This document shows, piece by piece, positions 15,003 through 59,760 of a stretch of 64,000 bases of DNA; positions within the stretch are counted from its first letter, which is position 1; the number at the start of each line of letters is the position of its first letter. Origin of the DNA: Kibdelosporangium persicum (GTDB lineage Bacteria; Actinomycetota; Actinomycetes; Mycobacteriales; Pseudonocardiaceae); NCBI RefSeq assembly GCF_013280595.1, contig NZ_JAAATY010000027.1:1-64000 (forward strand), written 5' to 3'. Both the position numbers and the translations under genes were made by a program. Under the pieces are notes generated by a model, which was given only the letters and a program-made list of their open reading frames with translations, was not told where the DNA came from and made no database searches.

Positions 15003-15839
15003 ATGTCGGATTTGACAGTTCCCGTCGGCGTGGTTCGGCGGGAATACGGGATATCTGGGACAGTGTTTTCAGGGAATGGGGGTGCCGCGGTGGGTGGCAG
15101 GGATCCCGACCGCATCGCCGATTTCGCCGGACCCGGTATCCGGACACTGGTGTGCGACCGCCAGCCAGTGATGCGGGAGGGCTTGGCCGCCATACTCGGC
15201 CGGGAGCCGGGCATCTCGGTCGCCGGCGCGGCCAGATCCCACGACGAGGCCGTCACGGCCGCACGGACGCGGCATCCGTCCGTCGCGGTCATCAGCCACG
15301 ATCCGCCTGATCTCGACGGCTTCGAGCTGACCGGGCAACTCGGCCGGCTGGACGGTGCGGTACGGCCGATCCTGCTGCTGGATGTGCCGCCGATCGCCGA
15401 TTCGGTGACACGGTTTCTGCGTGCCGGTGCCAGAGCCGTGCTCGACAAGGAGTTGGCGCCGGTGATGCTGCCTGCCACCGTGCGCGCGGTGTCCTCCGGC
15501 GGCGTGGTCATCGCACCGCCCGAAGCCGGACGGTTGGTCGACCAGCTGGAGCAACACCCCGTTCGCACCGGCCAGTTGGATCGTTTGTTGTCCGAGCGTG
15601 AGCGAGAAGTCTATCGGTACGTCGCGCAGGGGCTGAGCAATCGGGAGATCGCCGAAGCCATGTCGCTCACGGTCGCGACCGTCAAGTCCCACGTGCACAG
15701 CGTGGCCCGCAAGCTCGACGTCCGGGACCGTGTGCAGGCGGTGATCCTGGCCTACGAGACGGGCGTGATCCGGCCGAACGGCGTCCGGCGTAGTCCGAAG
15801 CCGAACGGGGTCCGGCAGCCTCTCCAAGGTCAGCGCTGA
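15003..15839 (+). CDS. LuxR/NarL-type orphan response regulator with atypical receiver
   Basis: A ~278-residue DNA-binding regulator. The receiver-like domain starts at RTLVCDRQPVMREGLAAIL. It keeps the acidic pocket and the late Lys (VLDKELA), but the phospho-acceptor position in VAVISHDPPDLDG appears to be Ser rather than Asp. The C-terminal LuxR helix-turn-helix is clear (SEREREVYRYVAQGLSNREI ... SHVHSVARKLDV). No histidine kinase is adjacent. It is the first gene at the left edge of the cluster and is convergent with the LanB-like gene, whose end it overlaps. ATG at 15003 is preceded by GGTGGAG. ATG 14961 and a GTG near 15090 are alternatives. Confidence 0.82.
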   Translation: MSDLTVPVGVVRREYGISGTVFSGNGGAAVGGRDPDRIADFAGPGIRTLVCDRQPVMREGLAAILGREPGISVAGAARSHDEAVTAARTRHPSVAVISHDPPDLDGFELTGQLGRLDGAVRPILLLDVPPIADSVTRFLRAGARAVLDKELAPVMLPATVRAVSSGGVVIAPPEAGRLVDQLEQHPVRTGQLDRLLSEREREVYRYVAQGLSNREIAEAMSLTVATVKSHVHSVARKLDVRDRVQAVILAYETGVIRPNGVRRSPKPNGVRQPLQGQR

Positions 15840-18172
15840 CCGACGGTGGCGGCAGGCGCCGGATCGGTGATCTGCAGCCGGATCTCTCCGAAGTAGTGGT
15901 TGCCTGCCGCGTCGGGGATCCACGTCTGGTCCGGCGTCGGCAGCATCTCCGAGATCACCACGTCGACGCGGTCACCGTGCTCGTCACGGGTGGCGCGGAG
16001 CATCGTGCACAGTGACGCCACGTAGAGCGGGCTGGTGAAGTCCACATACACGGGTTTGCGCTCGGTGGCGATCTTGACGAAGCACCGGTCCGGCAGCCCG
16101 AGCCGGGCGACCAGTCGCCGGCCCGCGAGATACCGTGCGGCGTCTCCCTTGAGCGTCAACAAATCCGCGAGTTCGGCTACGCGCGTGCGCCATGTCTCCC
16201 GGAACAGCACGAGCCGGTCGATCGTCACGCGCGGCGTGTGGGCGGCCGTGGACAGGCCACGGAACATGTTCACGGCCGTGGTCGACAGGAAGTGGGCGAA
16301 GAACTCGAGCACCGGCACGTCCTCGCCGTCAGGCAGCCTGCCCATCAACCGGTCGCCCGTCATGTGCAGGCGGACTGAGACGGTCGGCACCACGCGCCGG
16401 GCGTCCACGCCGGTCGCCTTGGCGAAGCCGATGTGCCGATCGGTAGGCGCGTCCTCGATCTGGACGTTGCGGCCGGCGTCCCGCGACCACATCGCCGGGA
16501 ACAGCGGCACCATCCGCGTCCGGCCGAAGTCCTCGATGGTCTGCCGCAGCAGCAGGTCCGGCTCGTCCCGGGACCACGTGCACCACCGGTCGGTCATCGG
16601 CGCGTACGCCAGGTGCAACTCGCCCAGCACGGCGGTGAAGTCACCGGAGTTGATGTCCGCCACGGACTTCGCGCAGACGATCAGGTCCGGACTGTGCACC
16701 CGTGCCCACGACCAGCCCGGCCGCTCGGCCGCGAACAACCGGTCCACCTGGCCGGACAACGCGGTGGCGTCCCGCCGGACACGCTTGTCACCCGGACCGG
16801 CGGGGAACAGTTCGGCCCACCGGCCGGCCAGTGCCCGCGCGATCCGGTCCACCGGTTTGACGTCGTCGCCCCAGAACAGGTCGATCGCCGGATGCCACAG
16901 GTCGGCGAGTGTCGGGTGCGGGACGTCTTGCGCCACCTTCCCGAACAGCCGTCGCAGGCCCTGTTCGTAGGTCCGGCCCAGTTCACTGGTGAGCCAGCGG
17001 GCCGCCTGGAGCACGATGCCCAGTGCCGGCGCCAGGTCGTCGAGCAACCGCCGCCCGATGACCATCCGCAGGTCACGGCTGGTGTCCTCGTAGCAGATCC
17101 CGCGTCCGGCGTACATCTGGCCGGAGCGGCGTCGCGCGGGCTTGCCGGTCAGTTCGCTGAAAGTGTTCTCCAGCAGCGACATGGCGCTCGCCAGTGCGTC
17201 CGGGTCGCCCGCGGCCTTGGCGACCTGGTCGCGGGCCGCGCGCAGCCGGTCGAGCCCGGCTTGCGCGGCGAACCGCGGATCCGCCGGCTCGATCGCGGCG
17301 ATCCGTTGCGCCAGCAGTGTTTCGGTGTGCGGACTGACCGGGAGGTTCGGGTCCCAGCGCAGGACTTTGCGGCGCACCAGATCGTCCAGCAGCCCCGAAC
17401 CATCCCTTTCGGACATGCCGAGTGTGCGCAGGATGTCCGCGGCCGTTCGGGTGCCGTCGCACAACGCGACCACGGCGGCTTCGTCGGACGTCAGCTCCAG
17501 CGGCGGCGATCCGGGCCGGTGCAGCTGTTCGCCGTCGAGAAGGTGGTGTGGCATCGGCGACGGCGGGAGCCACAGTTTCGTGCGCGGATCTTCCGCGAGC
17601 GTCGCCGCGTAGGTGGTGAGCGCCCATGGCTCGAGGAACACCTCGCGTCGCGCCAGCAGATCATCGCCCGGTGTCGCCCGCACGTCCTGCTCGCGCGGAT
17701 CGAGCTTGATCCAGCAGCCCGGACCGAAAAAACCGATCGTCTCGGTCTTGGTGCAGTACCGCTGCCAGAACCGGGCCAGCACGACTTCGCGGTAGCGGCG
17801 CTTGCTGTTGCGCGGTTTCGGCGGCCCGCTGCGGCGCAGCGAGTCCAGCAGCCCGGCAACCGCGGGATTCTGCCAGGTGATCGCCTCACGCAGGCGGACG
17901 TCTCCGGCGATCACGTCGACCTGACCGGACGACTCGGTCAGTGTCTCGGCGAACCGCGCCTCGAACTCCGCCGTCCCGGCCTCGCCGGCCAGACAGGCGT
18001 CGGCGATCGCGGCGCACTCCGGCGCGGCCAGCCGATCCACCCAGGCTGCCGGGAAACCCGTCGTGCGCAGCAACGCGTCCCGCCAGATCGACCAGCCGGT
18101 GTCGCCGAGCGTGAACCGGTGTGCGGGCGACTCGCCGGCGCGAACGGCCGACGGCGAGAAGGTCGTCGTCAT
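15830..18172 (-). CDS. LanB-like dehydratase-family protein (glutamylation-type domain only)
   Basis: A ~780-residue member of the lantibiotic dehydratase N-terminal family. It shows the conserved helical segment RRYREVVLARFWQRY, the Gly-rich TIGFFGPGCW and, later, SVRLHMTGD and RLVLFRETW blocks. Full LanB enzymes (~1000 residues) glutamylate Ser/Thr using glutamyl-tRNA and then eliminate. This protein is short and shows no elimination domain, like the stand-alone glutamylation partners and the PEARL peptide aminoacyl-tRNA ligases. No precursor peptide is visible nearby, so it may add an aminoacyl group from tRNA to a small molecule or a carrier. ATG 18172 (MTTTFSPS) fits the divergent SARP-box promoter better than the longer frame. 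Confidence 0.75.
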   Translation of the reverse strand: MTTTFSPSAVRAGESPAHRFTLGDTGWSIWRDALLRTTGFPAAWVDRLAAPECAAIADACLAGEAGTAEFEARFAETLTESSGQVDVIAGDVRLREAITWQNPAVAGLLDSLRRSGPPKPRNSKRRYREVVLARFWQRYCTKTETIGFFGPGCWIKLDPREQDVRATPGDDLLARREVFLEPWALTTYAATLAEDPRTKLWLPPSPMPHHLLDGEQLHRPGSPPLELTSDEAAVVALCDGTRTAADILRTLGMSERDGSGLLDDLVRRKVLRWDPNLPVSPHTETLLAQRIAAIEPADPRFAAQAGLDRLRAARDQVAKAAGDPDALASAMSLLENTFSELTGKPARRRSGQMYAGRGICYEDTSRDLRMVIGRRLLDDLAPALGIVLQAARWLTSELGRTYEQGLRRLFGKVAQDVPHPTLADLWHPAIDLFWGDDVKPVDRIARALAGRWAELFPAGPGDKRVRRDATALSGQVDRLFAAERPGWSWARVHSPDLIVCAKSVADINSGDFTAVLGELHLAYAPMTDRWCTWSRDEPDLLLRQTIEDFGRTRMVPLFPAMWSRDAGRNVQIEDAPTDRHIGFAKATGVDARRVVPTVSVRLHMTGDRLMGRLPDGEDVPVLEFFAHFLSTTAVNMFRGLSTAAHTPRVTIDRLVLFRETWRTRVAELADLLTLKGDAARYLAGRRLVARLGLPDRCFVKIATERKPVYVDFTSPLYVASLCTMLRATRDEHGDRVDVVISEMLPTPDQTWIPDAAGNHYFGEIRLQITDPAPAATVGQR

Positions 18173-18206
18173 GGTGCCAGCGTGGTGGCGGCTGGTACAG
18201 CCGCGC

Positions 18207-18257
18207 ATACAGGTGCCATACAGGGACATGAATATCGCGCCTGTATGGCACCTGTAT
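18207..18257. promoter_or_regulatory. Divergent SARP-box array 1 (perfect 18-bp inverted repeat)
   Basis: ATACAGGTGCCATACAGG (18207-18224) recurs as its exact reverse complement at 18240-18257 across a 15-base spacer. Each arm holds two ATACAGG heptamers whose starts are 11 bp apart, the hallmark of SARP activator sites. It lies between the LanB-like gene (minus) and the radical SAM-cupin-cyclase-aminotransferase operon (plus), so each arm can serve one direction. The SARP encoded at 46.66 kb is the obvious candidate ligand. Confidence 0.85.
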
Positions 18258-18336: not shown

Positions 18337-19230
18337 ATGTCGGGGAGGAGCCGTACCGGCGCGCCCGGGGCTACGGTGGAGTCCGCACCGGGCCGGTCCG
18401 GGCCGGAGGAGGTCCCCGGGCTGTCCGTGGTCGAGATGGAAGTCTGTTCGAGGTGCAACCGGCGGTGTTCGTACTGCCCGGTGTCGTTGGACCCGATGCC
18501 GCCAGTGCCTGCGCGGATGTCCGACGAGGTGTTCCTGCGCACTGTCGAGCAGTTGGAGCGGGTGTCGTTCGCCGGCCGGATCTCGTACCACCTGTACAAC
18601 GAGCCACTGCTGCGGACCGACTTGGCCCGCCTGGTCGCGATCGTGGCCGAGCGGTTGCCGAACGCGCTGCAGATCCTGAACACCAACGGTGATCTGCTCA
18701 ACGAGCGCCGGTTCACCGACCTGCGGCAGGCGGGGATCGACTACTTCTACGTCACGCGCCACTCGCCTGGTGACTACCCGGAGCGGCCGTTCCAGGTGCT
18801 GCAGACGTGGCAGGACCTGACGTTGACCAACCGCGGCGGCACACTGACGCACCTGCCGATGCCCAAGCCGAGGACCACGCGGACACCGTGCTGGGCGCCG
18901 TCGGAGATGCTCATCGTGACGGTGACCGGCGACGTCCTGCTGTGCTACGAGGACGCGGACCGGGAACACGTGATGGGCAACATCATGCGCAGCGAACTGC
19001 CGGACATCTGGAACTCCGAGCGATTCCGCGCGATCCGCGAACGGCTGCGGCACGGCGAGCGCTCGGTGGACGGCATGTGCATGAAGTGTTCCAACGTGTC
19101 CCACTCGCGGCCGGGACTGTCCGCGCTGGAAGACACCGTGCTCGACGCGAGCGGCCTGACTCGTCGGTCACCGGCCGCGGTCGCTGTTCTCAAACGCCGG
19201 TCCACCGAAGCACGGACCGGCCGGTCATGA
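18337..19230 (+). CDS. Radical SAM/SPASM-type enzyme of the cyclitol operon
   Basis: A 297-residue radical SAM enzyme with the 4Fe-4S motif CNRRCSYC (C40, C44, C47). C-terminal cysteines (CWAPSEM, LLCYEDAD, then CMKC) suit a second cluster of SPASM or twitch type. Gene context (a cyclitol synthase and DegT aminotransferase in the same operon) recalls BtrN, the butirosin enzyme that oxidises 2-deoxy-scyllo-inosamine, so dehydrogenation or epimerisation of a cyclitol is a fair guess. Substrate unproven. It is first in its operon, behind SARP-box array 1. The stop overlaps the cupin ATG (ATGA). Confidence 0.82.
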   Translation: MSGRSRTGAPGATVESAPGRSGPEEVPGLSVVEMEVCSRCNRRCSYCPVSLDPMPPVPARMSDEVFLRTVEQLERVSFAGRISYHLYNEPLLRTDLARLVAIVAERLPNALQILNTNGDLLNERRFTDLRQAGIDYFYVTRHSPGDYPERPFQVLQTWQDLTLTNRGGTLTHLPMPKPRTTRTPCWAPSEMLIVTVTGDVLLCYEDADREHVMGNIMRSELPDIWNSERFRAIRERLRHGERSVDGMCMKCSNVSHSRPGLSALEDTVLDASGLTRRSPAAVAVLKRRSTEARTGRS

Positions 19231-19643
19231 CCCGGCAGGCGACACAGGAATTCCACCGGTGCAACATCTTCCGGCTGCCGTTGCGGCCCGAGGTCGCACA
19301 CGGGGGCACCGGCGTCATCGAGGCGGTCCGGATCGCCACCGGCGAGACGGTGGACGGCGGGTGCGACTTCATCGACTACGCCGTCGTGCCCGCGGGCACG
19401 TCCATCGGCGACCACCGGCACAGGCTCGACGAGGAGGAGTTCTACCTCGTGCTCAGCGGCATCGGCACCATGCGGCTGGAGGACAGGACTTTCCCGGTGA
19501 CCGCGGGCGACCTGGTCCGCAACCCACCGGGCGGACTGCACGGACTCGTCAACGCCGGACCGGATCCGGTGCGCCTGTTCATCTTCCAGTTGGCGGCAGG
19601 TCAGGAGAACTCGACGTGTGGAACTCGCGGGACATCGAGGTGA
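19227..19643 (+). CDS. Small cupin-domain protein
   Basis: A 138-residue single-domain cupin. The metal-binding motif appears as GDHRHRLDEEEFYLVLSG and the second motif as GDLVRNPPGGLHGLVN. Such cupins act as isomerases, epimerases, dioxygenases or sensors. Lying between a radical SAM enzyme and a cyclitol synthase, it most likely acts on the cyclitol or its sugar phosphate precursor. It is translationally coupled at both ends: ATGA with the radical SAM gene, and a 28-base overlap into the cyclase gene. No precise reaction can be assigned. Confidence 0.75.
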   Translation: MTRQATQEFHRCNIFRLPLRPEVAHGGTGVIEAVRIATGETVDGGCDFIDYAVVPAGTSIGDHRHRLDEEEFYLVLSGIGTMRLEDRTFPVTAGDLVRNPPGGLHGLVNAGPDPVRLFIFQLAAGQENSTCGTRGTSR

Positions 19644-20869
19644 CACCGGGCGCGCGGTGTTCCGGCGGCCAGATCTCGGCGTCGTCGACGCTGGAGGACT
19701 CCGGGCGCCTGATGGGACTGCAGTCAAGGCTGGACCGGGCGCACCACGTCGCCATGACCAGGAACGCGTTCGCGCCGGACAACGCACTCGTGCGGAACTG
19801 CCTGGCCGGACGGGACGCACTGGTCGTGATGAGCCCGTCGGTGCACCGCCTCTACGGACCGCGCATCCGGGCGTACTTCGAGGAGGTCACCGACGTCCAT
19901 TTCATGGTGCTGCACAGGACCGAGGCGTCGAAATCCCTGGACGCCGTGGTCGAGGTGACCGAACGCGCCGCCGCGGTGGGACTGCGCCGCACGTCGCCCA
20001 TTGTCGCGATCGGCGGCGGCGTGTGCACCGACATCAGCGGGTTGGCTGCCGCATTGCATCGCCGTGGCGTACCGCACTTCAACGTGCCGACGACGCTCGT
20101 GGGCCTTGTCGACGCGGGCATCGGCACCAAGAACGCGGTCAACCACGGCCGCCGCAAGAGCGCGCTCGGCACGTTCTACCCGCCCGAGCACACCGTGCTG
20201 GACATCGACTTCCTCGCCACCCTGCCACGCAGGCAGCTGGCCAACGGCCTGGCCGAGATCATCAAGCTGGCGGTGGTGAAGGATCGGCCGCTGTTCGAAC
20301 TGCTCGACCGGTACGGCATGAGGTTGCTGGACTGTGGATTCCGCAGGCCGGTACGCGCCGCCGACGAGATCGTCTGGCGCGCGGCCGCGGGCATGCTGGC
20401 GGAGCTGGCGCGCAACCAGTTCGAGATCGGGGACTTCCGGCGCAAGGTCGACTTCGGGCACACCTTCAGCCCGTACATCGAAGTCGCCTCAGGGCACTCG
20501 GTGTTGCACGGCGAGGCGGTCGCGATGGACATCGCGCTCTCGGCGCAACTGGCCCATGCTCTCGGCCTGCTCACCGAAGCCGATCTCGAGCGGATTCTCA
20601 CCATGCTGGAGACGACCGGCCTGGCGCTGGTGTGGCCCGGGCTGTCGGTCGACGCGCTGTGCGCCACGCTGCCGTCCATTGTGGAACACCGGAACGGGGA
20701 CCTGCATCTCGTGGTGCCGACCGGCATCGGCACATGCGAGTTCCTTGGTGCCGCCGACATCAACCCGGCCCTGCTGCGCGCGAGTATGGCCGAGTTGGTG
20801 CGGCGCACCTGCCGTGACGACATCCAGACCGTCCAGCGGCGGACTCTGGCGGCCTCCGGAGGACAGTGA
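19616..20869 (+). CDS. Sugar phosphate cyclase, 2-epi-5-epi-valiolone synthase-like
   Basis: A 417-residue dehydroquinate-synthase-fold enzyme. It has the NAD-binding GGGVCTDISGLAAALHRRG, then VPTTLVGLVDAG and FYPPEHTVLD, the metal ligand His in GHTFSPYIE and HGEAVAMD. These, with the late VPTGIG segment, match the valiolone-synthase (EEVS) branch, which cyclises sedoheptulose 7-phosphate to a C7 cyclitol, better than 2-deoxy-scyllo-inosose synthases (which read KQAVN and GHTIGH). Here the usual EEVS KTGVN reads KNAVN, so specificity is open. The GTG at 19616 was chosen for the upstream AGGAG eight bases away. Confidence 0.82.
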   Translation: MWNSRDIEVTPGARCSGGQISASSTLEDSGRLMGLQSRLDRAHHVAMTRNAFAPDNALVRNCLAGRDALVVMSPSVHRLYGPRIRAYFEEVTDVHFMVLHRTEASKSLDAVVEVTERAAAVGLRRTSPIVAIGGGVCTDISGLAAALHRRGVPHFNVPTTLVGLVDAGIGTKNAVNHGRRKSALGTFYPPEHTVLDIDFLATLPRRQLANGLAEIIKLAVVKDRPLFELLDRYGMRLLDCGFRRPVRAADEIVWRAAAGMLAELARNQFEIGDFRRKVDFGHTFSPYIEVASGHSVLHGEAVAMDIALSAQLAHALGLLTEADLERILTMLETTGLALVWPGLSVDALCATLPSIVEHRNGDLHLVVPTGIGTCEFLGAADINPALLRASMAELVRRTCRDDIQTVQRRTLAASGGQ

Positions 20870-20870: not shown

Positions 20871-22178
20871 ATGACCGACGAGACGCTAGCCCTCTTCGGC
20901 GGACAGCCCATCCGTACGCAGCCGTGGCCCAGATGGCCGCAACCGACGCAGGACACCTACGACGCGGTCGCGGACGTGCTCGGCTCCACCCGCTGGGCCG
21001 TGAGCGGACCGTACGACGGCCGCGTCTGCTACGAGCGACAGTTCGCTCATGCCTTCGCTGCTTTCCACGAGGTGCCGTACTGCACGCCGACCACATCGGG
21101 CACAGCCTCGCTCACCATCGCGCTGCAAGCCCTCGGCGTGGGGCGCGGAGACGAGGTACTCGTGCCTGGCTTGACGTGGGTGGCATGCGCGTCGGCCGTG
21201 GTCCACCTCGGCGCGGTACCGGTGCTGGTGGACTGCGATCCGCACACGTTGGCGATGAGCGTGGACCGTGCGCGGGAAGCGCTGACGCCGAGGACTGCGG
21301 CGATCATGGTGGTCCACCCGTACTGCAGTGTCGCGGACTTGGACGCGTTCGTCGCGTTGGCGGAGCAGGCGGGCGTACCGCTGGTCGAGGACTGCGCACA
21401 GGCTCACGGCGCACGATGGCGGAACCGGCCGGTGGGCACGTTCGGTGCGGCCGGGTGCTTCAGCATGCAGCAGGCCAAGTTGTTGACCTCCGGGGAAGGC
21501 GGGGCGGTCGTCACCGCCGATGAAAGCGTCCACCAACGGTTGGAGCAGTTGCGGTCGGACGGCCGCCTTTTCATGGCCGGGCCACAGGTGGGACAGTTGG
21601 AACTGCGCGAGGTCGGTGGCGTGCTCGGTCGCAACCTGTGCCTTTCGGAACTGCAGGCCGCCGTTCTGCTGACCGGGCTGCGGAGGTTGGCGGCCGACAA
21701 CGAACGGCGGCACGAGCGTGCATGCCAGCTCACCGAGGCGCTCAGAGACTGCGAAGGCGTGTCCGCGCTTCCCGCCGATCCACGCGTGACCACCCGGACC
21801 TACTACAACTTCGTGCTGCGGTTGCGGCCGGAGGCGTTCGCGGGGAACACGGTGGACGCAGTCGCCCGTGCGCTGTCGGCCGAACTGGGCACGTCGGTGA
21901 ACCCGGTCTATCCGCCGTTGAACCGCCACCGGCTCTACCGCCCTGACCGGCTGCCACGTGGTGAAATGTCCGAAAAGGACATCAAACGGCTCGATCCGGC
22001 CCAGTACGAGCTTGCTGTGTGCGAGGAAGCACGCCGCACCTGCATGACGTTCACGCATCCGGTGCTGCTGGCCGGCAAGGACGGTGTGGACGACATCGTC
22101 GCGGCCATCCGGAAAGTCCACGGCCAGTCAGCAGGCTTGCTGCGAGCGCCGCAGGAGCCGTCCACACAGGCCATCTAG
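20871..22178 (+). CDS. DegT/DnrJ/EryC1 aminotransferase (cyclitol type)
   Basis: A 435-residue PLP aminotransferase. The Schiff-base Lys is K203 in SMQQAKLLTSGEGG, with the pyridine-contact segment VEDCAQAHG before it. The N-terminal LALFGGQPIRTQPWPRWP and overall length match the ketocyclitol aminotransferases (StsC, BtrS, NeoB), which use glutamine or glutamate to aminate cyclitol ketones. It directly follows the cyclase gene (one base between stop and ATG) with a GGAGG ribosome binding site. It is the last gene of the cyclitol operon and meets the condensation-like gene tail to tail with a 4-base overlap. Confidence 0.88.
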   Translation: MTDETLALFGGQPIRTQPWPRWPQPTQDTYDAVADVLGSTRWAVSGPYDGRVCYERQFAHAFAAFHEVPYCTPTTSGTASLTIALQALGVGRGDEVLVPGLTWVACASAVVHLGAVPVLVDCDPHTLAMSVDRAREALTPRTAAIMVVHPYCSVADLDAFVALAEQAGVPLVEDCAQAHGARWRNRPVGTFGAAGCFSMQQAKLLTSGEGGAVVTADESVHQRLEQLRSDGRLFMAGPQVGQLELREVGGVLGRNLCLSELQAAVLLTGLRRLAADNERRHERACQLTEALRDCEGVSALPADPRVTTRTYYNFVLRLRPEAFAGNTVDAVARALSAELGTSVNPVYPPLNRHRLYRPDRLPRGEMSEKDIKRLDPAQYELAVCEEARRTCMTFTHPVLLAGKDGVDDIVAAIRKVHGQSAGLLRAPQEPSTQAI

Positions 22179-24836: not shown

Positions 24837-24858
24837 GAACCGATTGTCGTTCCGTGCC

Positions 24859-25859: not shown

Positions 25860-25861
25860 AG

Positions 25862-28529: not shown

Positions 28530-28543
28530 CTAGCCTCGTGGAC

Positions 28544-52670: not shown

Positions 52671-54088
52671 CCGTCGACTCGCCGGCATCGATAGTGCCCA
52701 CCCAGGAGATGCAGTGGGAGTTGATGTACGCGCTGTCCCCGTCAGATCCTGGCGCGTCCCGGGTGCTGATCGTGGACAACCGGTATCTCGACGGCCCACT
52801 TGACCGCAAGGCGATGACGGCCGCGTTCGACGACGTGATCGCTCGTCAGGACGCGCTCAGGCTCACCTTCACCACGGTGGCACCGGACCCGGCCGTCGTC
52901 GTCAACGACCGGATCGACCCGCCGGTGGAGTTCCTTGACCTGTCCGGCTGGACGGAAACCGCCCAGTCCGACCGGGTACAGGAACTCGCGTACCAGGAGA
53001 ACCGGCGCCGGTTCGACCTCGGCGGGCCGTTGTGGCACGCGTGGGTGGTCCGGCTCAGCGAGGTGACCTGCCTGGTGAACGTGTCGTTCTCGCACGTGAT
53101 CGCCGACGGTGCGGCGTGCGACGTGTTCATGCACGACCTGTTGACGGCGTACCAGGCGCGCACCGGGGACGGTCCAGGATGGACAAGCGATGCCCCGTCG
53201 TTCGCCGAGATCCACACCATCCAGTCGCGCCGGTTCGAGGCACGGGCCGATCGCGTGGCCCATTGGCGGGCGAACCTGGCTCCGGTGCCGCAGAATCCCG
53301 TCTTCACCCGTTCCGCACCACCGGACGCGGACCTGCTCGGCCGTGCGCGGGTCGGGTTCGAACTGCCGACGCCGACCGCGACCGAACTCCGGCGGATCGC
53401 TTGGCGTGCTTCCACAACGCCGTTCGTCGTGGTGCTCACCGCGTACCACGTCCTGTTGTCCCTGTTGGGGCACAAGGAACGGACGGTGATCGCGAGCGGG
53501 ACGTTGGCGCGGCCGACGAAGGCGGAGAGGCGCTCGGTCATGCAGTTCGTGACCGACACGTACGTCTGCGTCGACACACCGGATGGCGCGGCCTTGCGGG
53601 ATGTGGTCGGCAACGCGCACCGGTCGATGTCCGAGGGTGTCGAGAACCTGTTGTCCTACAAGACGATCGCCCGGGCGGTGAATCCACGGTTCGACTCGGC
53701 CCGGCCGTGGGCCGACTACCACCTGTGTGACGGACACTTCTACTCCGGCGCGTCCTACCGTCCAGCGTCCGAGGATTCCCGGTTGCGGCTGCGTCATGCC
53801 TACATCCCGGGGCGTCCGCCCGCCGAACAGTCGTCGGACCTGGTGGCCGGTGCGCTGCCCGCGGATTTGTTCGAGGCGTGGGACGCATGGTGCGGTCCCA
53901 GTGTGGCGATGGGCAATCCTCGCAACGGTGGTGTGTTGCTCTACAACGATCAGGTCTACCCGACCGAGGTGATGCGCGGACTCGTGGACACCTACCTGTG
54001 GATCGTCGAGGCACTCGCGTGGTCTCCGCAGACCAAGGTGGGCGATCTGCGTGAGGAGTACGAACGTGATCGAAGGCTGGGAACATGA
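52667..54088 (+). CDS. Free-standing condensation-domain-like acyltransferase 2
   Basis: A 473-residue condensation-domain protein, paralogous to the one at 22.2-23.6 kb. The active-site motif is FSHVIADG, again Ser for the first His. Shared blocks include QEMQWELMYALSPSDPGASR near the N-terminus and VYPTEVMRGLVDTYL near the end. The GTG at 52667 has AAGGAG upstream and overlaps the radical SAM stop. It would use the carrier-bound product of the TrpB-ligase/radical SAM pair as donor. Ester and amide formation are both possible. Confidence 0.83.
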   Translation: MTVDSPASIVPTQEMQWELMYALSPSDPGASRVLIVDNRYLDGPLDRKAMTAAFDDVIARQDALRLTFTTVAPDPAVVVNDRIDPPVEFLDLSGWTETAQSDRVQELAYQENRRRFDLGGPLWHAWVVRLSEVTCLVNVSFSHVIADGAACDVFMHDLLTAYQARTGDGPGWTSDAPSFAEIHTIQSRRFEARADRVAHWRANLAPVPQNPVFTRSAPPDADLLGRARVGFELPTPTATELRRIAWRASTTPFVVVLTAYHVLLSLLGHKERTVIASGTLARPTKAERRSVMQFVTDTYVCVDTPDGAALRDVVGNAHRSMSEGVENLLSYKTIARAVNPRFDSARPWADYHLCDGHFYSGASYRPASEDSRLRLRHAYIPGRPPAEQSSDLVAGALPADLFEAWDAWCGPSVAMGNPRNGGVLLYNDQVYPTEVMRGLVDTYLWIVEALAWSPQTKVGDLREEYERDRRLGT

Positions 54089-55101
54089 CGGGCCTCGCCC
54101 CGGTGATGACCCGTGAGGGCGCGGTGGGCTGGCGCGACATCCCGTTGGACGGCATGACCTGCTACCACCGCGGCGTCGAAGCCGTTCTGCGAGGCGGCGG
54201 CATGTCAGCGGACGAGATCGTCGCCGAGATGAGCGGCCCGATCACCACTCGCTTCCATCGCGACGGCAGGCCACAACTGCGCATGCGCACCGCCACCGCA
54301 CGCTGGATGAGCGCGCCGAACGGCGGCAGCCGCTGGGATGTGGTCGAAACACGGCTGGCGGCCGGTCGTCCGATCCTGATCTGGCCGGACGGGTACTTCT
54401 GGCCCGGCGACCCGTACGAAGGCCGTCGGCACATCCACCACCACGCGGTGCTGGCGACCGGAATCGACGGAGGCACGTTGCGGTTTCTCGACGTCGACGC
54501 GGACGAAGCGGGCGGCTTCCGTGGCGAGGTACCGGTGACCGAGCAGACCAGACGGGCCTGCACGCGGGTGCTCGACCTGGACCTGTCAAGACCTCGTCGA
54601 CCACTACGGCCGGTCGACGTCCGCAGAACCATCACGGCGTCCGCCAGGCCGCTTGGCCGGCTCGCCAGGGCCACAGCCGATCTCGCCCAGTGGTGGGCAG
54701 CGGGTCCTACCCGTCGGTTGGCGCACGCGGTCGACTTGTTCGCACTGGGCGACGTTCAGCCGCAGGTGTACCTGTTCGCGGCGTTGTGTGAGCGATATGG
54801 CCATTCGGACCTGGCGGCGCTGGGCTACCAGACGGCCGCGACCGCGAAGAAGATCAGCTTGTTGCTCTTCGCGCTGCACCGCTACAAACCGATCGCGCCG
54901 TACGACTTGTGTCTCGGCGACATCGAGTCGCTTGCCGTGCGACTGGAAGCGATGTGGCGGGCGGCCAGCCCTGGTGAGGGCGACGACGACACTACGCACA
55001 GCAGCGCCTGGTTGTGGCGGCGATTGGACGCGTTGTCCATGTGGCACTTCAACTCCAGCATCGGCAGATGTCCGGAGTCGGTCACCGTGCGCGCTTCCTG
55101 A
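54085..55101 (+). CDS. BtrH-like cysteine acyltransferase 3
   Basis: A 338-residue protein of the same papain-like group. C26 in LDGMTCYHRGVEAVL, His in HIHHHAVLATG and Asp in LRFLDVDADE form a candidate catalytic triad. The helical C-terminal half ends in a His- and Ser-rich stretch without a carrier domain. It is coupled by ATGA to condensation-like protein 2, so a C-like enzyme and a BtrH-like enzyme may act in sequence or as partners. Assignment to the BtrH group rests on motif order and context. Overall similarity to the other two is low. Confidence 0.62.
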   Translation: MTGLAPVMTREGAVGWRDIPLDGMTCYHRGVEAVLRGGGMSADEIVAEMSGPITTRFHRDGRPQLRMRTATARWMSAPNGGSRWDVVETRLAAGRPILIWPDGYFWPGDPYEGRRHIHHHAVLATGIDGGTLRFLDVDADEAGGFRGEVPVTEQTRRACTRVLDLDLSRPRRPLRPVDVRRTITASARPLGRLARATADLAQWWAAGPTRRLAHAVDLFALGDVQPQVYLFAALCERYGHSDLAALGYQTAATAKKISLLLFALHRYKPIAPYDLCLGDIESLAVRLEAMWRAASPGEGDDDTTHSSAWLWRRLDALSMWHFNSSIGRCPESVTVRAS

Positions 55102-55109: not shown

Positions 55110-56213
55110 ATGGTTCGAGTGGTGAGCGAGAAACTGTCCTGGCGACAGGCGCTTGCCTGGCGCATGCGCAGGCACCATTTGGTGGAACCGGCGCGTGACG
55201 CGGTCACGGTCGCGAGCACGCTCTGCGGGCTGCACGCGCAGGTGATGTCGTCCGCCGAGCTGAGCTTGTGGGCACGAACCGACACATTGCCGCGCAACGC
55301 GTTGGCCGACGCCTTGTGGGAACGCCGCACGCTCGTGAAGCTCTGGGCCGCGCGTGGCACGCTCCACATTCTGCCGTCGTCGGAATTGGGCCTGTGGCTG
55401 GCCGCACTCGGCACGCAGACGAAGTTCGGCAACGTGGGCAATGCGAAGATCGACAAGCTGGTCGACGTGATCAGTGCGGCGCTCGACGACAAGGTGCTGA
55501 CACGCACCGAACTGGCCTCGGCTGCCGAGCGGATCAGCGGCGATCCGGCGCACGCCGAATGGATCGGGTCCAGCTGGGGTTCGTACCTGAAAGCCGCGTC
55601 GTTCCGGGGAAAGATCTGCTTCGCGAAGGGCGACGGCACTCAGGTCAGGTTCGCCGCGCCGGATACGTGGCTGCGCGAGCCGATTCGCCGTCCGCCCGCG
55701 CAGGACGCGCTCCGCGAGATCACCCGGAAGTTCCTCGCCGCCTACGCGCCCGCGACGCCGGAGGACCTCACGCGGTGGTGGCTGGGGCCGCCGGTGCCGA
55801 CGCGCGGTCACAAGTTGATCGCGGCGTTGGGAAAGGACGCGGTGGAAGTCGATGTGGAGGGTCACCGGGCGTGGGTGCTCGCTTCGGATCTGGCCGACAT
55901 CCGCGCCGCGGCAGCTCCGGGCACCGCCTGCCTGCTTCCGGCGTTCGACCCGTGGGTGATCGGGATGAGCCGCCGGCCGCCGTTGCTGGACCCGAGACAT
56001 CGGGACGAGGTGTTCCGCAAGCAGGGCTGGATCTCGCCGGTGCTGGTGGTCAACGGACGGATCGCCGGCGTGTGGCGGCACGAGGGGACCGGCGACCGGG
56101 TGAGCGTGGAGCTGCGCCCGTTCGGCCGCTTGCCGGCCTGGGCAGGCCGGCGACTGCGGGCGCGAGCGGAACAGGTGCGTGATTTCCTCGCGGGCGCTCA
56201 GGATCGGCTGTAG
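55110..56213 (+). CDS. AlkZ/YcaQ-like winged-helix DNA glycosylase homologue (HTH_42)
   Basis: A 367-residue member of the three-winged-helix HTH_42 family. The family includes AlkZ, which unhooks azinomycin crosslinks in its producer, and YcaQ. The catalytic QxQ/QxD motif position reads LCGLHAQVMSS, so the first Gln is His (H42-A43-Q44). LWAARGTLHIL and LLPAFDPWVIG are typical family blocks. Placed at the end of a biosynthetic operon, it is a candidate self-resistance glycosylase and hints that the product damages DNA. Start ATG 55110 has only a weak ribosome binding site. The 3' end overlaps the PhyH gene by 16 bases. Confidence 0.8.
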   Translation: MVRVVSEKLSWRQALAWRMRRHHLVEPARDAVTVASTLCGLHAQVMSSAELSLWARTDTLPRNALADALWERRTLVKLWAARGTLHILPSSELGLWLAALGTQTKFGNVGNAKIDKLVDVISAALDDKVLTRTELASAAERISGDPAHAEWIGSSWGSYLKAASFRGKICFAKGDGTQVRFAAPDTWLREPIRRPPAQDALREITRKFLAAYAPATPEDLTRWWLGPPVPTRGHKLIAALGKDAVEVDVEGHRAWVLASDLADIRAAAAPGTACLLPAFDPWVIGMSRRPPLLDPRHRDEVFRKQGWISPVLVVNGRIAGVWRHEGTGDRVSVELRPFGRLPAWAGRRLRARAEQVRDFLAGAQDRL

Positions 56214-57052
56214 ACCACCGGGAAGTAGTCGTCGAAGTCGATCGGGTCGCCGACCTTGATCGTGGCCAGGATCTCGTTGGGCAGGATGTTGGGCGTGCCG
56301 TTGTACGTCGCGCCACACGGCATCCACGAGATGGCGAAGGCGGGGCGTGGCCGCGGCGTCATGTTCGCGCACGAGGCGTGCGCGGTGTCTCCGTTGTGGA
56401 CGATCATGGCACCGGCGCGCACCGGGCAGGCCGCCGGTTCGGCGTTCTCCCATTTCGGGTTCAGGTGCTTGAGGCTGTCTATCCGCATGCCGCCCTTGGT
56501 GCGCATCCGGGCCTTGTGGCTGCCGGGGATGTAGTGCATGCAGCCGTTGCTCAGGTCGCAGTCCACCAGTGCGAACCAGAACGTGGACGCGGACGAGTGG
56601 GTGAAGGAGAACGCGGGGGTGTCCATGTGCCAGCCGGTCGGCTCGCCCCATGCCGGTTTGAACATCGTCTGGTCGTGCCACAGCCGGACGCCGTCGACGT
56701 CGCCGAGCACGGCCGCGATCCGGCCAAGCCGGGGGTCCAGGCTGAACTTGCGCACCTGCTCGTCGGTCTGCCAGAGGTTGACGTGCTGCGACAGCACCCG
56801 CGTCCACGATCGACGGTGCTTGAGAAACGCGTCACGCAGCCGTTTGCGATCGGCCGGCTGGGACACGTTCAGGCTCTCACCACCACCGGTGGTGGTCTCG
56901 TTCGCCATCCGCGCCTCACCACGGTTCTCCACCGCCGCCGTGAGATTCAGGTGCAACCTGTCGACTTCGGCGCCGTCGAGGAAGTCCTCGATGACGAGGT
57001 AACCGTTCTCCTGGTAGAACTCGATCTGTTCGTCGGTCAGCTCGTCGCGCAT
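56198..57052 (-). CDS. PhyH-family Fe(II)/2-oxoglutarate dioxygenase
   Basis: A 284-residue phytanoyl-CoA dioxygenase-family oxygenase. The metal triad is H and D in PTGWHMDTPAF with a distal His in the VHNGDTAHASCANM region; the Arg that binds 2-oxoglutarate is likely in TPRPRPAF. The family hydroxylates, halogenates or desaturates natural products. It keeps HxD, so it is a hydroxylase type rather than a halogenase. It is a single minus-strand gene behind SARP-box array 4. ATG 57052 is preceded by GGGAGAG. Confidence 0.88.
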   Translation of the reverse strand: MRDELTDEQIEFYQENGYLVIEDFLDGAEVDRLHLNLTAAVENRGEARMANETTTGGGESLNVSQPADRKRLRDAFLKHRRSWTRVLSQHVNLWQTDEQVRKFSLDPRLGRIAAVLGDVDGVRLWHDQTMFKPAWGEPTGWHMDTPAFSFTHSSASTFWFALVDCDLSNGCMHYIPGSHKARMRTKGGMRIDSLKHLNPKWENAEPAACPVRAGAMIVHNGDTAHASCANMTPRPRPAFAISWMPCGATYNGTPNILPNEILATIKVGDPIDFDDYFPVVYSRS

Positions 57053-57133
57053 GGCCGCTCTCCCAACCTGTGTTGTGCGCCGATCACTGAGGGACACGCG
57101 TGTGCGTCATGACCACGACAATGTCGCTAAGGC

Positions 57134-57179
57134 ATACAGTCCACCTACAGAGTAGGTATCCTGTACGGCCGATGTATGG
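57134..57179. promoter_or_regulatory. Divergent SARP-box array 4
   Basis: ATACAGT at 57134 and CTACAGA at 57145 are 11 bp apart on the plus strand. On the opposite strand two heptamers read as TGTA at 57162 and 57173, also 11 bp apart. It lies between the PhyH oxygenase (minus) and the ABC exporter operon (plus). An upstream ATG at 57176 lies inside the array, which argues for the later exporter start at 57200. Confidence 0.78.
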
Positions 57180-57199
57180 CGTCGCGCGATCGTCGTGGC

Positions 57200-58177
57200 A
57201 TGACCGGAATCTCGGCGACACCGGCCGTCCACGGACACGGCCTGGCCACGGGCGAGCCGGTCGTCCGTGCCAGGAGCCTGGTCAAGCGGTTCGGCGACAT
57301 CACCGCCGTGGACGGTGTCGACTTCACGATCCGGTCAGGGGAGGCCTTCGGTTTCCTCGGCCGCAACGGCGCGGGCAAGACGTCCACGATGCGGATGATC
57401 GGCTGCGTGTCGCCGCCGAGTGATGGCCGGCTGACCGTACTCGGCATGGATCCTGTACGAGAAGGCGCTTCGGTCCGGGCACGACTGGGTGTGTGTCCCC
57501 AGGAGGACAACCTCGACCTGGAGCTCACCGCGCGGCAGAACCTGACCACGTACGCGCGTTACTTCCGGATCACCCGTGCCGAAGCCCGGCGGCGGGCGGA
57601 TGACCTGCTGCGGTTCGTGCAGCTTGACGATCGCGCCGCCAGCAAGGTGGAACCGTTGTCCGGCGGGATGAAACGCCGGCTGACGATCGCCCGTGCGCTG
57701 ATCAACGATCCGGAGATCGTGCTGCTGGACGAGCCGACCACCGGCTTGGACCCCCAGGCCCGGCACCTGGTGTGGGAACGGCTGTTCCAGCTCAAGCAAC
57801 GCGGCATCACGCTCGTGCTGACCACTCACTACATGGAGGAAGCGGAGCAGCTCTGCGACCGTCTGGTCATCATGGACGGTGGCCGGATCGTCGCGCAGGA
57901 CGCGCCCCGTGCGTTGATCGACGCCCACTGCACCAAGGAAGTGGTCGAACTCCGCTTTGCCGCCGAAGACCACGAGTCCTGTGCGGACAAACTGGTCGGC
58001 ATCGGCAGCCACGTCGAGGTTCTGCCTGACCGGCTGTTGCTCTACACGGATGACGGCGACGCGATCGTTCCCACCGTGTACGAGCGTGGTCTGCGGCCGT
58101 CGGGAGTTCTGGTGCGGCGCAGTGGTCTGGAGGACGTGTTCCTGCACCTGACGGGCCGCACGCTGGTGGAGGCATGA
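57200..58177 (+). CDS. ABC exporter ATP-binding protein (DrrA type)
   Basis: A 325-residue ATPase of the drug-resistance/NodI group. Walker A is GRNGAGKTST, the signature is LSGGMKRRLTIARAL, Walker B is VLLDEPTTGLDPQ and the switch His is in LTTHYMEEAEQL. A ~90-residue C-terminal extension is normal for DrrA-type proteins. With two following permeases it should pump the cluster product or an intermediate out of the cell. ATG 57200 (MTGISATPA) was chosen over 57176. Confidence 0.93.
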   Translation: MTGISATPAVHGHGLATGEPVVRARSLVKRFGDITAVDGVDFTIRSGEAFGFLGRNGAGKTSTMRMIGCVSPPSDGRLTVLGMDPVREGASVRARLGVCPQEDNLDLELTARQNLTTYARYFRITRAEARRRADDLLRFVQLDDRAASKVEPLSGGMKRRLTIARALINDPEIVLLDEPTTGLDPQARHLVWERLFQLKQRGITLVLTTHYMEEAEQLCDRLVIMDGGRIVAQDAPRALIDAHCTKEVVELRFAAEDHESCADKLVGIGSHVEVLPDRLLLYTDDGDAIVPTVYERGLRPSGVLVRRSGLEDVFLHLTGRTLVEA

Positions 58178-58942
58178 ATGGCGCATCCCTCGGTCGCGGT
58201 TCTGGAATACCACTTGGCGGGCTACCGGCGAGTGTGGCTCAGCACCGTGGCCAGTTCGCTGGCGATGCCGATCCTGTTCTTCATCGGTATGGGACTGGCG
58301 GTCGGTTCCTTTGTGGACCGCGGTGGCGCGCTTCCGGTGCCGTACCTGCAGTACATCGCACCGGGTCTGATCGCCTTCGCCGGTCTGCAGATCGCGGTCG
58401 GCGAAGGTGGTTTTCCGGTGCTGACCAATTTCAAGTGGCAGAAGGTCTACGACAGCATGGCCGCGGCGCCGTTGCGCGTCGGTGACATGATCCTCGGCAG
58501 GCTGGGATACATCGCAATCCGTGTGATGGTGGCGGCCATCGCCTTTCTGGTGGTGATGCTCGCTTTCGGCACGGTCGGGTCCGTCCTCGCGGTGGTGACG
58601 CCGGTGGTCGTGGCCTTGGTGGGCGTGGCGTCCGCGGCGCCGATGTTCGCCCTGGCGGCCAGTGTGAACAGTGCGAACGCCATGGCGGTGATCAGCAGAA
58701 TCGGGGTGCTGCCGATGATGCTCTTCTCCGGCGTGTTCTTCCCGGTCGAGCAGTTGCCAGCTTTCGTTCGTCCGGTCGCTTATGTGCTGCCGCTGTGGAA
58801 CGGCGTGGAATTGTGCCGCGCGACAACGCTTGCGATGACCACCACCTGGCCCGCGTTCGTCCATGTCGCGGTACTCGTCGCGTGGGCGGCCGGTGGATTC
58901 TGGCTGGCGTGGTCGAGATTCCGCAAACGGTTGGGGAGCTGA
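58178..58942 (+). CDS. ABC-2 type permease 1
   Basis: A 254-residue membrane protein with about six helices and the ABC-2 pattern: KVYDSMAAAPLRVGDMILG in the cytoplasmic loop and MMLFSGVFFPVEQLPAFVRP before the last pair of helices. It starts one base after the ATPase stop. It probably forms a heterodimer with permease 2. Confidence 0.9.
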   Translation: MAHPSVAVLEYHLAGYRRVWLSTVASSLAMPILFFIGMGLAVGSFVDRGGALPVPYLQYIAPGLIAFAGLQIAVGEGGFPVLTNFKWQKVYDSMAAAPLRVGDMILGRLGYIAIRVMVAAIAFLVVMLAFGTVGSVLAVVTPVVVALVGVASAAPMFALAASVNSANAMAVISRIGVLPMMLFSGVFFPVEQLPAFVRPVAYVLPLWNGVELCRATTLAMTTTWPAFVHVAVLVAWAAGGFWLAWSRFRKRLGS

Positions 58943-59760
58943 TGGTCGCGGTGATGCTCGGTCGTGTCGTGGCCGGAGACGTCGTGCGTCCAGCCCACGT
59001 GGGCGCGGTGACCGCACGTGACCTGACGCTGATCCGTAGCGCTGGTTCGTATTTCTGGCTTGTGCTGTCCGGTTTCGCGGAGCCGCTGCTGTACCTGCTC
59101 GCGGTCGGTTGGGGTGTGGGGTCGTTGGTCGGTGCCATACCGCTCGAAGACGGCCGTTCCATTTCATACCAGGCTTTCATCGCGCCGGCTCTGCTGGCCA
59201 CGTCGGCGATGAACGGCGCGCTGGCCGAGGCCACCATCAACTTCTTCGCGAAACTGCGCTACCTGAAACACTACGACTCGGTGCTCAACACTCCGGTGAC
59301 ACCGGCGGAAGTCGCGTTCGGCGAACTGATGTGGGCAACGATCAGGGGCGCGCTGTACAGCGGGGCCTTCCTGCTGGTGATGATCATGATGGGCTTGGTC
59401 ACGCCATGGGCGGCACTTGCCGCGTTCCCGGCAGCGCTGCTGATCTGCCTGGCGTTCAGCGCGGTGGGACTAGCGATGTCCACCTTCATGCGTGACTGGT
59501 CGGACTTCGAATACTCCGGTGTCGTGCAGTTCGCGTTGTTCGTCTTCTCGGGGACGTTCGTGCCGCTGTCGGTGTTCCCGGAACCGGCCCGAATCCTGGT
59601 CGAACTGACGCCGCTCTACCACGGTGTGGAACTGACCCGAGCGATGACACTCGGCCCGCTCGACTCCACCTCGCTGGTGAACCTGCTCTACCTCCTTGTG
59701 CTGATGGTGGCGGCGACGGCGGTGGCGGCCCGTCGGATGCGCCGTCGGCTGCGGCGGTAG
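58942..59760 (+). CDS. ABC-2 type permease 2
   Basis: A 272-residue permease paralogous to permease 1 (KLRYLKHYDSVLNTPVTPAE and LFVFSGTFVPLSVFPEPARI match the same loops). The start overlaps the permease 1 stop as TGATG, with GGGGAG upstream. It is the last gene of the exporter operon and the likely right edge of the biosynthetic cluster. Confidence 0.9.
   Translation: MVAVMLGRVVAGDVVRPAHVGAVTARDLTLIRSAGSYFWLVLSGFAEPLLYLLAVGWGVGSLVGAIPLEDGRSISYQAFIAPALLATSAMNGALAEATINFFAKLRYLKHYDSVLNTPVTPAEVAFGELMWATIRGALYSGAFLLVMIMMGLVTPWAALAAFPAALLICLAFSAVGLAMSTFMRDWSDFEYSGVVQFALFVFSGTFVPLSVFPEPARILVELTPLYHGVELTRAMTLGPLDSTSLVNLLYLLVLMVAATAVAARRMRRRLRR

Follow-up and report, generated by a model that had tools for sequence, protein, structure and literature searches.

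Several described biosynthetic systems share part of their gene content with a cluster that we analyzed in Kibdelosporangium persicum, on contig 27 (NZ_JAAATY010000027.1) of its 10.35-Mb genome; the window, that is, the whole stretch of DNA under study, comprises the first 64,000 nucleotides of this contig. In Bacillus circulans, butirosin formation involves a 2-deoxy-scyllo-inosose (DOI) synthase, a DOI-type aminotransferase, the dehydrogenase BtrN, and the decarboxylase BtrK with its acyl carrier protein (ACP), and we use these gene roles for comparison. A carrier supplies the decarboxylated acidic amino acid used for butirosin and for macrolactam starters, and in validamycin biosynthesis the C7 cyclitol is processed by kinase and epimerase steps. 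A sequence-only reading of the window had placed C7-cyclitol and lincosamide-type alkylproline genes in one cluster, and this union is present, with matches well above what chance would produce for all the named genes but the LmbC-type one; Kribbella albertanoniae repeats it in another order and with no GGT found. The accompanying prediction of a lincosamide-like product did not fare as well: Pfam scans revealed no LmbE-type or aminooctose gene, and the adenylation (A) domain resembles another enzyme (see below). That reading is least secure in its analogy to lincosamides, and butirosin logic fits better. Positions 15.0 to 59.8 kb constitute a single biosynthetic cluster of approximately 40 genes (Table 1) that includes a C7 cyclase of the 2-epi-5-epi-valiolone synthase (EEVS) type, a BtrN-type radical S-adenosylmethionine (SAM) enzyme, two DOI-type aminotransferases, and five of six alkylproline-type genes. 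On balance, we consider it probable, with considerable reserve, that the cluster directs the synthesis of one hybrid compound fed by three supply lines.

The cluster shares with butirosin a BtrN-type dehydrogenase, a DOI-type aminotransferase, a BtrK-type decarboxylase with an ACP, and weak BtrH_N matches; however, an EEVS-type C7 cyclase takes the place of DOI synthase, and a VinN-like ligase and alkylproline-type genes are present. With lincomycin and celesticetin it has in common alkylproline-type genes, an LmbU-family regulator, and an enzyme whose modeled fold matches CcbD, whereas searches of the window revealed neither an LmbC-type A domain nor LmbX, LmbE, or aminooctose genes. No DinB-type Pfam match indicative of LmbV was found in the window either, a weak test because LmbV is only weakly DinB-like according to the accessible part of PMC4351081. 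The hormaomycin alkylproline branch, also without LmbX as far as the accessible part of PMC4780272 states, is similar in this respect; unlike that system, the window has cyclitol genes and no multi-module nonribosomal peptide synthetase. The EEVS-type cyclase is shared with validamycin-type C7 cyclitol pathways (ValA), but BtrN/DegT processing replaces the kinase and epimerase steps. The beta-amino acid loading sets of macrolactams, which we take to be those of vicenistatin and incednine, similarly combine a ligase, an ACP, a pyridoxal phosphate (PLP) decarboxylase, and a capping A domain; in contrast, window scans revealed no polyketide synthase family, and acyl-CoA dehydrogenase (ACAD)-like and AziU3/CcbD-fold enzymes are added. 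Azinomycin was compared only by its AziU3-fold enzymes and AlkZ-type glycosylase, which have counterparts here; there is no aziridine evidence in the window.

The ring genes named in the earlier reading, an EEVS-like cyclase, a radical SAM gene in a BtrN context, and two DegT aminotransferases, all held up. Among solved structures, the cyclase matched ValA (4p53) best at 258.6 bits, ahead of 5tpr (196.6 bits; labelled 3-dehydroquinate synthase, presumably DDGS), the best other 3-dehydroquinate synthase (158.4 bits), and DOI synthase (103.1 bits). With a ValA lead of 62 bits over the next chain and 155 bits over DOI synthase, the cyclase is by sequence nearer to EEVS than to any of these enzymes; the DOI synthase of 2-deoxystreptamine-type pathways was not found in the window, where the EEVS-type cyclase stands instead. 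At two positions, which we take to be EEVS active-site residues that differ in DDGS, the Asp of VDFGH and the His of HRNG match ValA, whereas 5tpr has Ala and Thr, a comparison that covers at most two of 14 sites; the Kribbella cyclase retains both residues (MDLGH and HRDG). A 14-site EEVS residue set is mentioned in the accessible part of PMC4426668. For the radical SAM protein, the best match was BtrN, the next different enzyme scoring only 24.2 bits. The Arg of its NRGG motif aligns with residue 152 of the BtrN chain, which is presumably functionally important. Both DegT proteins matched best 5w70, an L-glutamine:DOI aminotransferase. With a BtrN-type dehydrogenase and a DOI-type aminotransferase both present by best match, the ring route appears to resemble that of butirosin with a different cyclase, and two aminotransferases together with BtrN point to two ring nitrogens. 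The C7 cyclitol of the earlier reading stood and its aminocyclitol was revised: a C7 diaminocyclitol, built by butirosin logic, is the most probable ring.

The only strong relative of BtrN in 386 family genomes (E 1e-30) was the window's own, and the same was true of 374 class-drawn genomes (E 1e-25), a set that overlaps the first. The corresponding count for EEVS (386 of 390 genomes) is uninformative because ordinary 3-dehydroquinate synthases match. In a matrix of 40 window genes against eight hand-cut regions from related clusters, a DegT1 ortholog was present only in Kribbella (59% identity), and DegT1 is 35 to 40% identical to all the DegT2 orthologs. DegT2, on the other hand, is 63 to 67% identical to four orthologs that span C6 and C7 clusters, whichever ring route they use. 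From this pattern we infer that DegT2 would make the amine common to all these clusters and that DegT1, with BtrN, would make a second amine on the C7 ring.

The alkylproline-type genes were also largely as the earlier reading had described them. At the family level, the heme tyrosine hydroxylase (TyrH) is of the LmbB2 type, and the regulator scores well above the cut-off of the LmbU model. The VOC, GGT, and F420-type LLM reductase genes named as LmbB1-, LmbA-, and LmbY-type are present, and these identities, like that of the methyltransferase MT2 as LmbW-type, are assigned by family and context. TyrH relatives were found in 72 of 390 genomes by a family search, whereas a scan of genome contigs with the single TyrH protein found none. 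Within approximately 1.5 kb of TyrH in the 29 best loci (the window's own excluded), we counted VOC1 in 24, LLM in 16, GGT in 6, the Asp/Asn hydroxylase in 3, and MT2 and RidA in 2 each, with GGT and MT2 undercounted due to short flanks; the five loci without any of these neighbors form the most distant branch of the TyrH tree. In that tree, the window groups with Actinomadura syzygii and two Amycolatopsis-type clusters (G086 and G097), with an SH-aLRT value of 89, which is under the starred level. GGT is 66 to 70% identical to its homologs in these three clusters, and MT2 homologs (53 to 66%) lie near GGT, VOC, and TyrH. Five of the six alkylproline-type genes co-occur in the window and in the same three clusters, and so does RidA; that RidA stands in for LmbX is speculation. 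LmbX is PhzF-like, and Pfam scans of the window proteins gave no PhzF match; three such matches lie on other contigs of the host genome. According to the accessible part of PMC4780272, an lmbX deletion strain still makes alkylprolines, with unsaturated side chains. Together with the hormaomycin precedent, the missing LmbX therefore predicts, by analogy, an unsaturated, hormaomycin-like side chain.

No LmbC-type gene was found, contrary to the earlier reading. The stand-alone A domain was rejected for this role: it resembles 6akd, which we take to be IdnL7, far more than a prolyl-carrier ligase (311 versus 149 bits), and its pocket does not track the presence of alkylproline genes. No other proline-like A domain was found, with the ligase half of the gene at 48815 to 51673 judged by Pfam and by eye only. 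Under the A-domain pocket numbering that we assume, the pocket reads, by eye, D-P-F-F-L-A-L-I-T. In an alignment, the orthologs from Actinomadura and Kribbella show the same pocket; there is one I-to-V change in orthologs from Micromonospora and Dactylosporangium sucinum, whose clusters have no alkylproline genes, and one F-to-H change in a Nocardioidaceae bin. Because a nearly identical pocket occurs in clusters without alkylproline genes, the A domain is unlikely to select alkylproline. A better candidate, and the likeliest, for coupling the alkylproline unit is the ATP-grasp enzyme: its homologs (50 to 60% identity) are found in all five compared clusters with TyrH and VOC, and none was found in the two compared clusters with myo-inositol-phosphate synthase and without TyrH or VOC. 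Dactylosporangium roseum, which has no TyrH, gave a weak match (32%).

The extra carriers of the earlier reading belong to a widespread beta-amino acid-type cassette with VinN-, BtrK-, and IdnL7-like enzymes: a ligase (380 bits to 3wvn, which, like 3wv4, is presumably VinN), a decarboxylase (184 bits), an ACP, two ACAD-like genes, and the A domain. By analogy with butirosin and macrolactam starters, it reads as a supply of a carrier-bound decarboxylated acidic amino acid. Among the best 80 of 244 relatives of the decarboxylase (alignment A1), by which the loci were selected, 61 have the ligase, ACAD1, and the A domain together, in several contexts, and 52 of these also have PCP1. We know of no description of the cassette as a unit, although no literature search was made for it. 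A contig labelled Burkholderia multivorans (L177) has an actinomycete-type cassette (decarboxylase 57% and ligase Alig1 58% identical), which may reflect contamination or transfer.

Two cassette-associated proteins, X2 and PCP1, were modeled with AlphaFold2 from alignments of 20 and 24 sequences, with pLDDT values of 91.5 and 93.4. In Foldseek searches, the X2 model matched AziU3 (2.8e-10), CcbD (7yn1; 8.9e-7), and CtaG (1.1e-6), and the PCP1 model matched AziU3 (1.1e-9), CtaG (1.3e-7), and, more weakly, carrier proteins. Three residues, a Cys, a His, and an Asp, never vary in either family (C24, H125, and D145 in 20 of 20 rows for X2; C28, H128, and D143 in 24 of 24 rows for PCP1). The accessible part of PMC4351081 assigns LmbD, which is 55 to 57% identical to CcbD, to lincosamide condensation by deletion; on this basis, the likeliest role of the modeled X2 and PCP1 folds would be amide transfer from carriers to amines.

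Related loci show how these parts are combined elsewhere. In 37 genomes, taken from 40 of the 80 cassette loci, BtrN-type matches at E 1e-3 were found in 36, but a strong one only in K. albertanoniae (67%, E 9.2e-118; next, 2.1e-13). EEVS was detected at E 1e-45 in 2 of 12 genomes: in Kribbella, where it adjoins the BtrN gene, and in D. roseum, 2.4 Mb from the cassette. Within approximately 38 kb, Kribbella has VOC, TyrH, ATP-grasp, LLM, BtrN, cupin, EEVS, DegT1, C (condensation) domain, DegT2, and cassette genes, in an order different from that of the window; BtrN, cupin, EEVS, and DegT1 form a run, with DegT2 approximately 11 kb beyond. The union of EEVS and alkylproline genes is thus not an accident of one genome. 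Since neither GGT nor the LmbW-type gene had a match in the 80 kb compared, Kribbella is a partial counterpart. Its ligase Alig1 is 60% identical to that of the window, though blank in the matrix, most likely because the ligase half of the TrpB-like fusion (PALP_A) took its place. In Kribbella, genes for a thiamine-diphosphate enzyme (L209:10352-11905) and for an Ntn hydrolase of the penicillin amidase type (L209:4400-6352) are found near VOC and TyrH, and the cluster also contains an AlkZ-family gene, together with GHMP kinase and SIS-domain genes reminiscent of a heptose route (L210:10010-14399).

The Actinomadura syzygii region matches 25 of the 40 window genes, including five alkylproline-type genes and the exporter, with no EEVS match; beside its DegT2 ortholog are genes for a myo-inositol-phosphate synthase, an inositol monophosphatase, and a GFO/IDH/MocA dehydrogenase. 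The same three genes, DegT2, and the C domain occur near the cassette in 6 of the 80 loci (five from Micromonospora and one from D. sucinum), where flanks of up to 10 kb showed no TyrH, VOC, or GGT match. In G086 and G097, alkylproline-type genes and the cassette are present, with no EEVS, BtrN, DegT, or C-domain match in the regions compared. This set of actinomycete clusters sorts into three exchangeable parts: ring, alkylproline, and carrier cassette. In a metagenome bin (G402), the TyrH and GGT matches were partial (128 and 152 bits), and we did not include it among the full alkylproline clusters. The Actinomadura cluster carries a HalD-family gene (PF23169; L214:12346-14055), which points to a possibly halogenated product. 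In four other genomes (G098, G127, G139, and G240), a TyrH-family gene, divergent from that of the window, and an AMP-ligase gene lie approximately 3 to 29 kb from an EEVS-like gene; they were rejected as the same hybrid because TyrH is 36 to 40% identical over part of its length and the stretches read yielded neither VOC1 nor GGT at E 1e-6. The family-search lists show the same proximity of EEVS and TyrH in G099.

A candidate for self-resistance is the AlkZ-like DNA glycosylase, whose HAQ at residues 42 to 44 aligns with QAQ of AlkZ. This agrees with the (Q/H)-aliphatic-Q catalytic motif that the accessible part of PMC9040887 associates with the cluster-linked AlkZ-like subfamily. The homolog in the Nocardioidaceae bin (53%) also has HAQ. 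The Kribbella AlkZ-family gene, assigned by Pfam, reads QLD, a type never seen in Streptomyces clusters as far as that part of PMC9040887 states. An AlkZ-type glycosylase suggests a DNA-reactive product, which we would offer as a guess, a possibility and not an expectation.

Three other explanations, which are not mutually exclusive, have to be weighed against one hybrid compound. It is improbable that the window contains two adjacent clusters with two products, a C7-aminocyclitol (approximately 18.3 to 24.9 kb) and the product of an unrelated alkylproline/cassette cluster. G086 and G097 do combine alkylproline and cassette genes without ring genes in the regions compared, but Kribbella repeats the union in a different order, DegT2 and the C domain accompany the cassette in the six Micromonospora and Dactylosporangium loci, DegT2 accompanies the alkylproline genes in Actinomadura, and C domain 1 and DegT2 overlap on the same strand in the window. 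We give equally little credence to the product proposed earlier, in which alkylproline would be amide-linked directly to the aminocyclitol in place of the aminooctose. Alkylproline-type genes are present, and the X2 model matches CcbD, the counterpart of LmbD, for which the accessible part of PMC4351081 describes a role in lincomycin condensation; against this, the A domain scores and its pocket speak against an LmbC-type assignment, LmbE and aminooctose genes were not seen in Pfam scans, and such a product would give the cassette genes nothing to do. Slightly less improbable, if still unlikely, is that the VOC/heme/GGT set makes another tyrosine-derived unit. No LmbX was found in the window, in Kribbella a thiamine-diphosphate enzyme accompanies VOC and TyrH and GGT was not found, and the Lmb-type identities of VOC, GGT, LLM, and MT2 come from family and context; on the other hand, four clusters each hold five of the six alkylproline-type genes, and alkylproline synthesis continues in the lmbX deletion strain (PMC4780272, accessible part).

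Several observations weigh against the hybrid compound itself. The substrate assigned to the BtrN-type enzyme is predicted from sequence, and to our knowledge an EEVS-derived substrate is without precedent. Because DegT2 serves inositol-type clusters, DegT1 and DegT2 could be alternatives instead of acting in succession. With no GGT or LmbW-type gene found in Kribbella, the VOC/TyrH pair may make something else there. EEVS and BtrN were found in none of the 80 cassette loci (E 1e-15) with flanks of up to 10 kb; those of Kribbella lie outside its locus. The nearest fold of both X2 and PCP1 is AziU3 (of azinomycin), not CcbD. X3 matches BtrH_N below the threshold (19.0 bits, cut-off 29.7), and in a search of 390 genomes its family was found in 15, all but the window itself at 1e-4 or weaker. 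Finally, AlkZ had no match (E 1e-10) in Actinomadura, G086, or G097, in a search that also missed the AlkZ-like gene of Kribbella.

The genes at 15,003 to 59,760 were delineated by a positional-GC gene finder and a six-frame open reading frame list; they are densely packed, and 4-base overlaps between neighbors are common. Ten proteins were scanned, and the nine that map left of 14.4 kb comprise a transposase, two subunits of xanthine-dehydrogenase type, one protein each of the CHAT, TPR, MMPL, and LGT families, and two further proteins without a Pfam family, which fits a left edge at approximately 15.0 kb. To the right, from 64 to 84 kb, only a P450 (29%) and a SARP (35%) matched window proteins, and cassette genes had no match there. 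The LanB-type protein, with two paralogs in Actinomadura and a homolog in a Nocardioidaceae metagenome-assembled genome, could possibly carry out tRNA-dependent aminoacyl transfer. The SARP regulator and a carrier share one open frame and are separate genes in G086, G097, and Actinomadura; this may be a fusion, an internal start, or a frameshift. A HydE/PylB-like radical SAM gene sits inside the cluster; neither the eight regions of the matrix (E 1e-10) nor the 80 cassette loci (E 1e-15) gave a match to it.

Table 1. Genes of the Kibdelosporangium persicum cluster, with positions in the window and the evidence for each assignment
Feature	Position	Strand	Evidence
LuxR-type response regulator, left edge	15003..15839	+	Pfam GerE and Response_reg
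LanB-type protein (Lant_dehydr_N)	15830..18229	-	Pfam PF04738, 69.9 bits
BtrN-type SPASM radical SAM dehydrogenase	18337..19230	+	167.2 bits to BtrN 4m7s; Kribbella ortholog 67%
Cupin	19227..19643	+	Pfam Cupin_2; Kribbella ortholog 56%
EEVS-type C7 cyclase	19616..20869	+	258.6 bits to ValA 4p53; Kribbella ortholog 56-58%
DegT1, DOI-type aminotransferase	20871..22178	+	407.1 bits to 5w70; Kribbella ortholog 59%
Stand-alone condensation domain 1	22175..23569	-	Pfam PF00668, 120.3 bits
DegT2, aminocyclitol aminotransferase common to inositol-route clusters	23556..24860	-	314.9 bits to 5w70
Asp/Asn hydroxylase-like amino acid hydroxylase	24987..25859	+	Pfam PF05118; NCBIfam TIGR04531 under cut-off
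VOC dioxygenase, LmbB1-type by context	25856..26347	+	Pfam Glyoxalase, 30 bits
Heme tyrosine hydroxylase (TyrH), LmbB2-type	26344..27291	+	254.7 bits to 8r2s
RidA-type protein	27278..27784	-	Pfam PF01042
SAM methyltransferase 1	27774..28529	+	Pfam
GGT homolog, LmbA-type C-C cleaving enzyme by context	28538..30355	+	Pfam, 348.8 bits
Cytochrome P450	30388..31620	+	Pfam
GT4-type glycosyltransferase	31617..32732	+	Pfam
F420-type LLM reductase, LmbY-type by context	32747..33631	-	TIGR03619, 107.2 bits, under cut-off
C-methyltransferase (MT2), LmbW-type by context	33635..34681	-	ApyS and ketoArg_3Met models, under cut-off
LmbU-family regulator	34674..35321	-	NF038070, 221.2 bits (cut-off 125)
ATP-grasp amino acid ligase, one of several possible starts	35318..36592	-	Pfam/NCBIfam
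PCP1, AziU3/CtaG-fold domain and carrier protein	36705..37898	+	PP-binding; AlphaFold2 model and Foldseek
Acyl-ACP ligase like 3wvn/3wv4	37895..39364	+	379.6 bits
BtrK-type PLP decarboxylase	39361..40563	+	183.9 bits to BtrK 2j66 (profile A1)
Acyl carrier protein	40570..40803	+	Pfam
Acyl-CoA dehydrogenase-like 1 (ACAD1)	40800..41957	+	Pfam
Acyl-CoA dehydrogenase-like 2	41950..43002	+	Pfam
Phosphopantetheinyl transferase	42999..43634	+	Pfam ACPS, 36.3 bits
X2, AziU3/CcbD/CtaG-fold enzyme	43568..44539	+	AlphaFold2 model, Foldseek, invariant Cys, His, Asp
Stand-alone amino acid adenylation enzyme, like 6akd	44536..45996	+	311.2 bits
Glyoxalase/bleomycin-resistance-type VOC protein	46004..46501	-	Pfam PF18029
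SARP regulator with in-frame C-terminal carrier protein	46650..48818	+	Pfam BTAD; carrier read by eye
TrpB-like PLP domain fused to AMP-ligase domain	48815..51673	+	Pfam PALP 128.7 bits, AMP-binding 211.6 bits
HydE/PylB-like radical SAM enzyme	51663..52670	+	TIGR03956, 213.2 bits (cut-off 254.6)
Stand-alone condensation domain 2	52667..54088	+	Pfam; 46% to condensation domain 1
X3, BtrH-like by weak sequence match	54085..55101	+	BtrH_N, 19.0 bits (cut-off 29.7)
AlkZ-like DNA glycosylase, candidate self-resistance	55110..56213	+	168.8 bits to AlkZ 5uuj; HAQ at 42-44
PhyH-type hydroxylase	56198..57097	-	Pfam
ABC exporter, three genes	57176..59760	+	Pfam; Actinomadura homologs 73/59/52%

Returning to one hybrid compound, a pathway can be proposed in which we infer every reaction, the order of reactions, the substrates, and the product from gene families, model folds, invariant residues, conservation, and linkage. 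EEVS would convert sedoheptulose 7-phosphate to 2-epi-5-epi-valiolone, the ketone of which DegT1 would aminate; the BtrN-type enzyme would then oxidize a hydroxyl of the aminocyclitol to a new ketone, and amination by DegT2 would give a C7 diaminocyclitol, the seven-carbon counterpart of 2-deoxystreptamine. Tyrosine hydroxylase, VOC dioxygenase, LmbW-type methylation, C-C cleavage by GGT, and the LmbY-type reductase would lead to a 4-alkylproline, which, without LmbX, would retain its side-chain double bond as in hormaomycin and would be coupled by the ATP-grasp enzyme. In the third line, the VinN-like ligase would load an acidic amino acid onto the ACP, the BtrK-like enzyme would decarboxylate it there, the IdnL7-like enzyme would cap the decarboxylated unit, and the two ACAD-like enzymes would oxidize the chain. 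The AziU3/CcbD/CtaG-fold enzymes and free-standing C domains may transfer the carrier-bound acyl groups onto the amines of the ring, after which the glycosyltransferase and the P450 would tailor the product, the ABC genes would export it, and the AlkZ-like glycosylase would remove its DNA adducts.

More tentatively still, the window and its partial Kribbella counterpart may found a new antibiotic class of DNA-reactive C7 diaminocyclitol peptides, characterized by an EEVS-fed BtrN-type ring, AziU3/CcbD-fold transferases, unsaturated alkylproline, an oxidized beta-amino acid chain, and AlkZ-type protection. Neither the union of EEVS and alkylproline genes nor the EEVS-BtrN ring logic was found in the open-access literature searched, and the earlier statement that no described product unites a C7 cyclitol with an alkylproline stands within that literature, subscription papers being outside its scope. 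2-Deoxystreptamine is the core of many aminoglycosides; if the proposed route is true, its C7 counterpart, reached by a swap of the cyclase, would provide ribosome- or nucleic-acid-binding antibiotics with a new core, and BtrN-type enzymes would accept C7 rings. On account of the AlkZ-like gene, the product is a candidate for a DNA-damaging agent.

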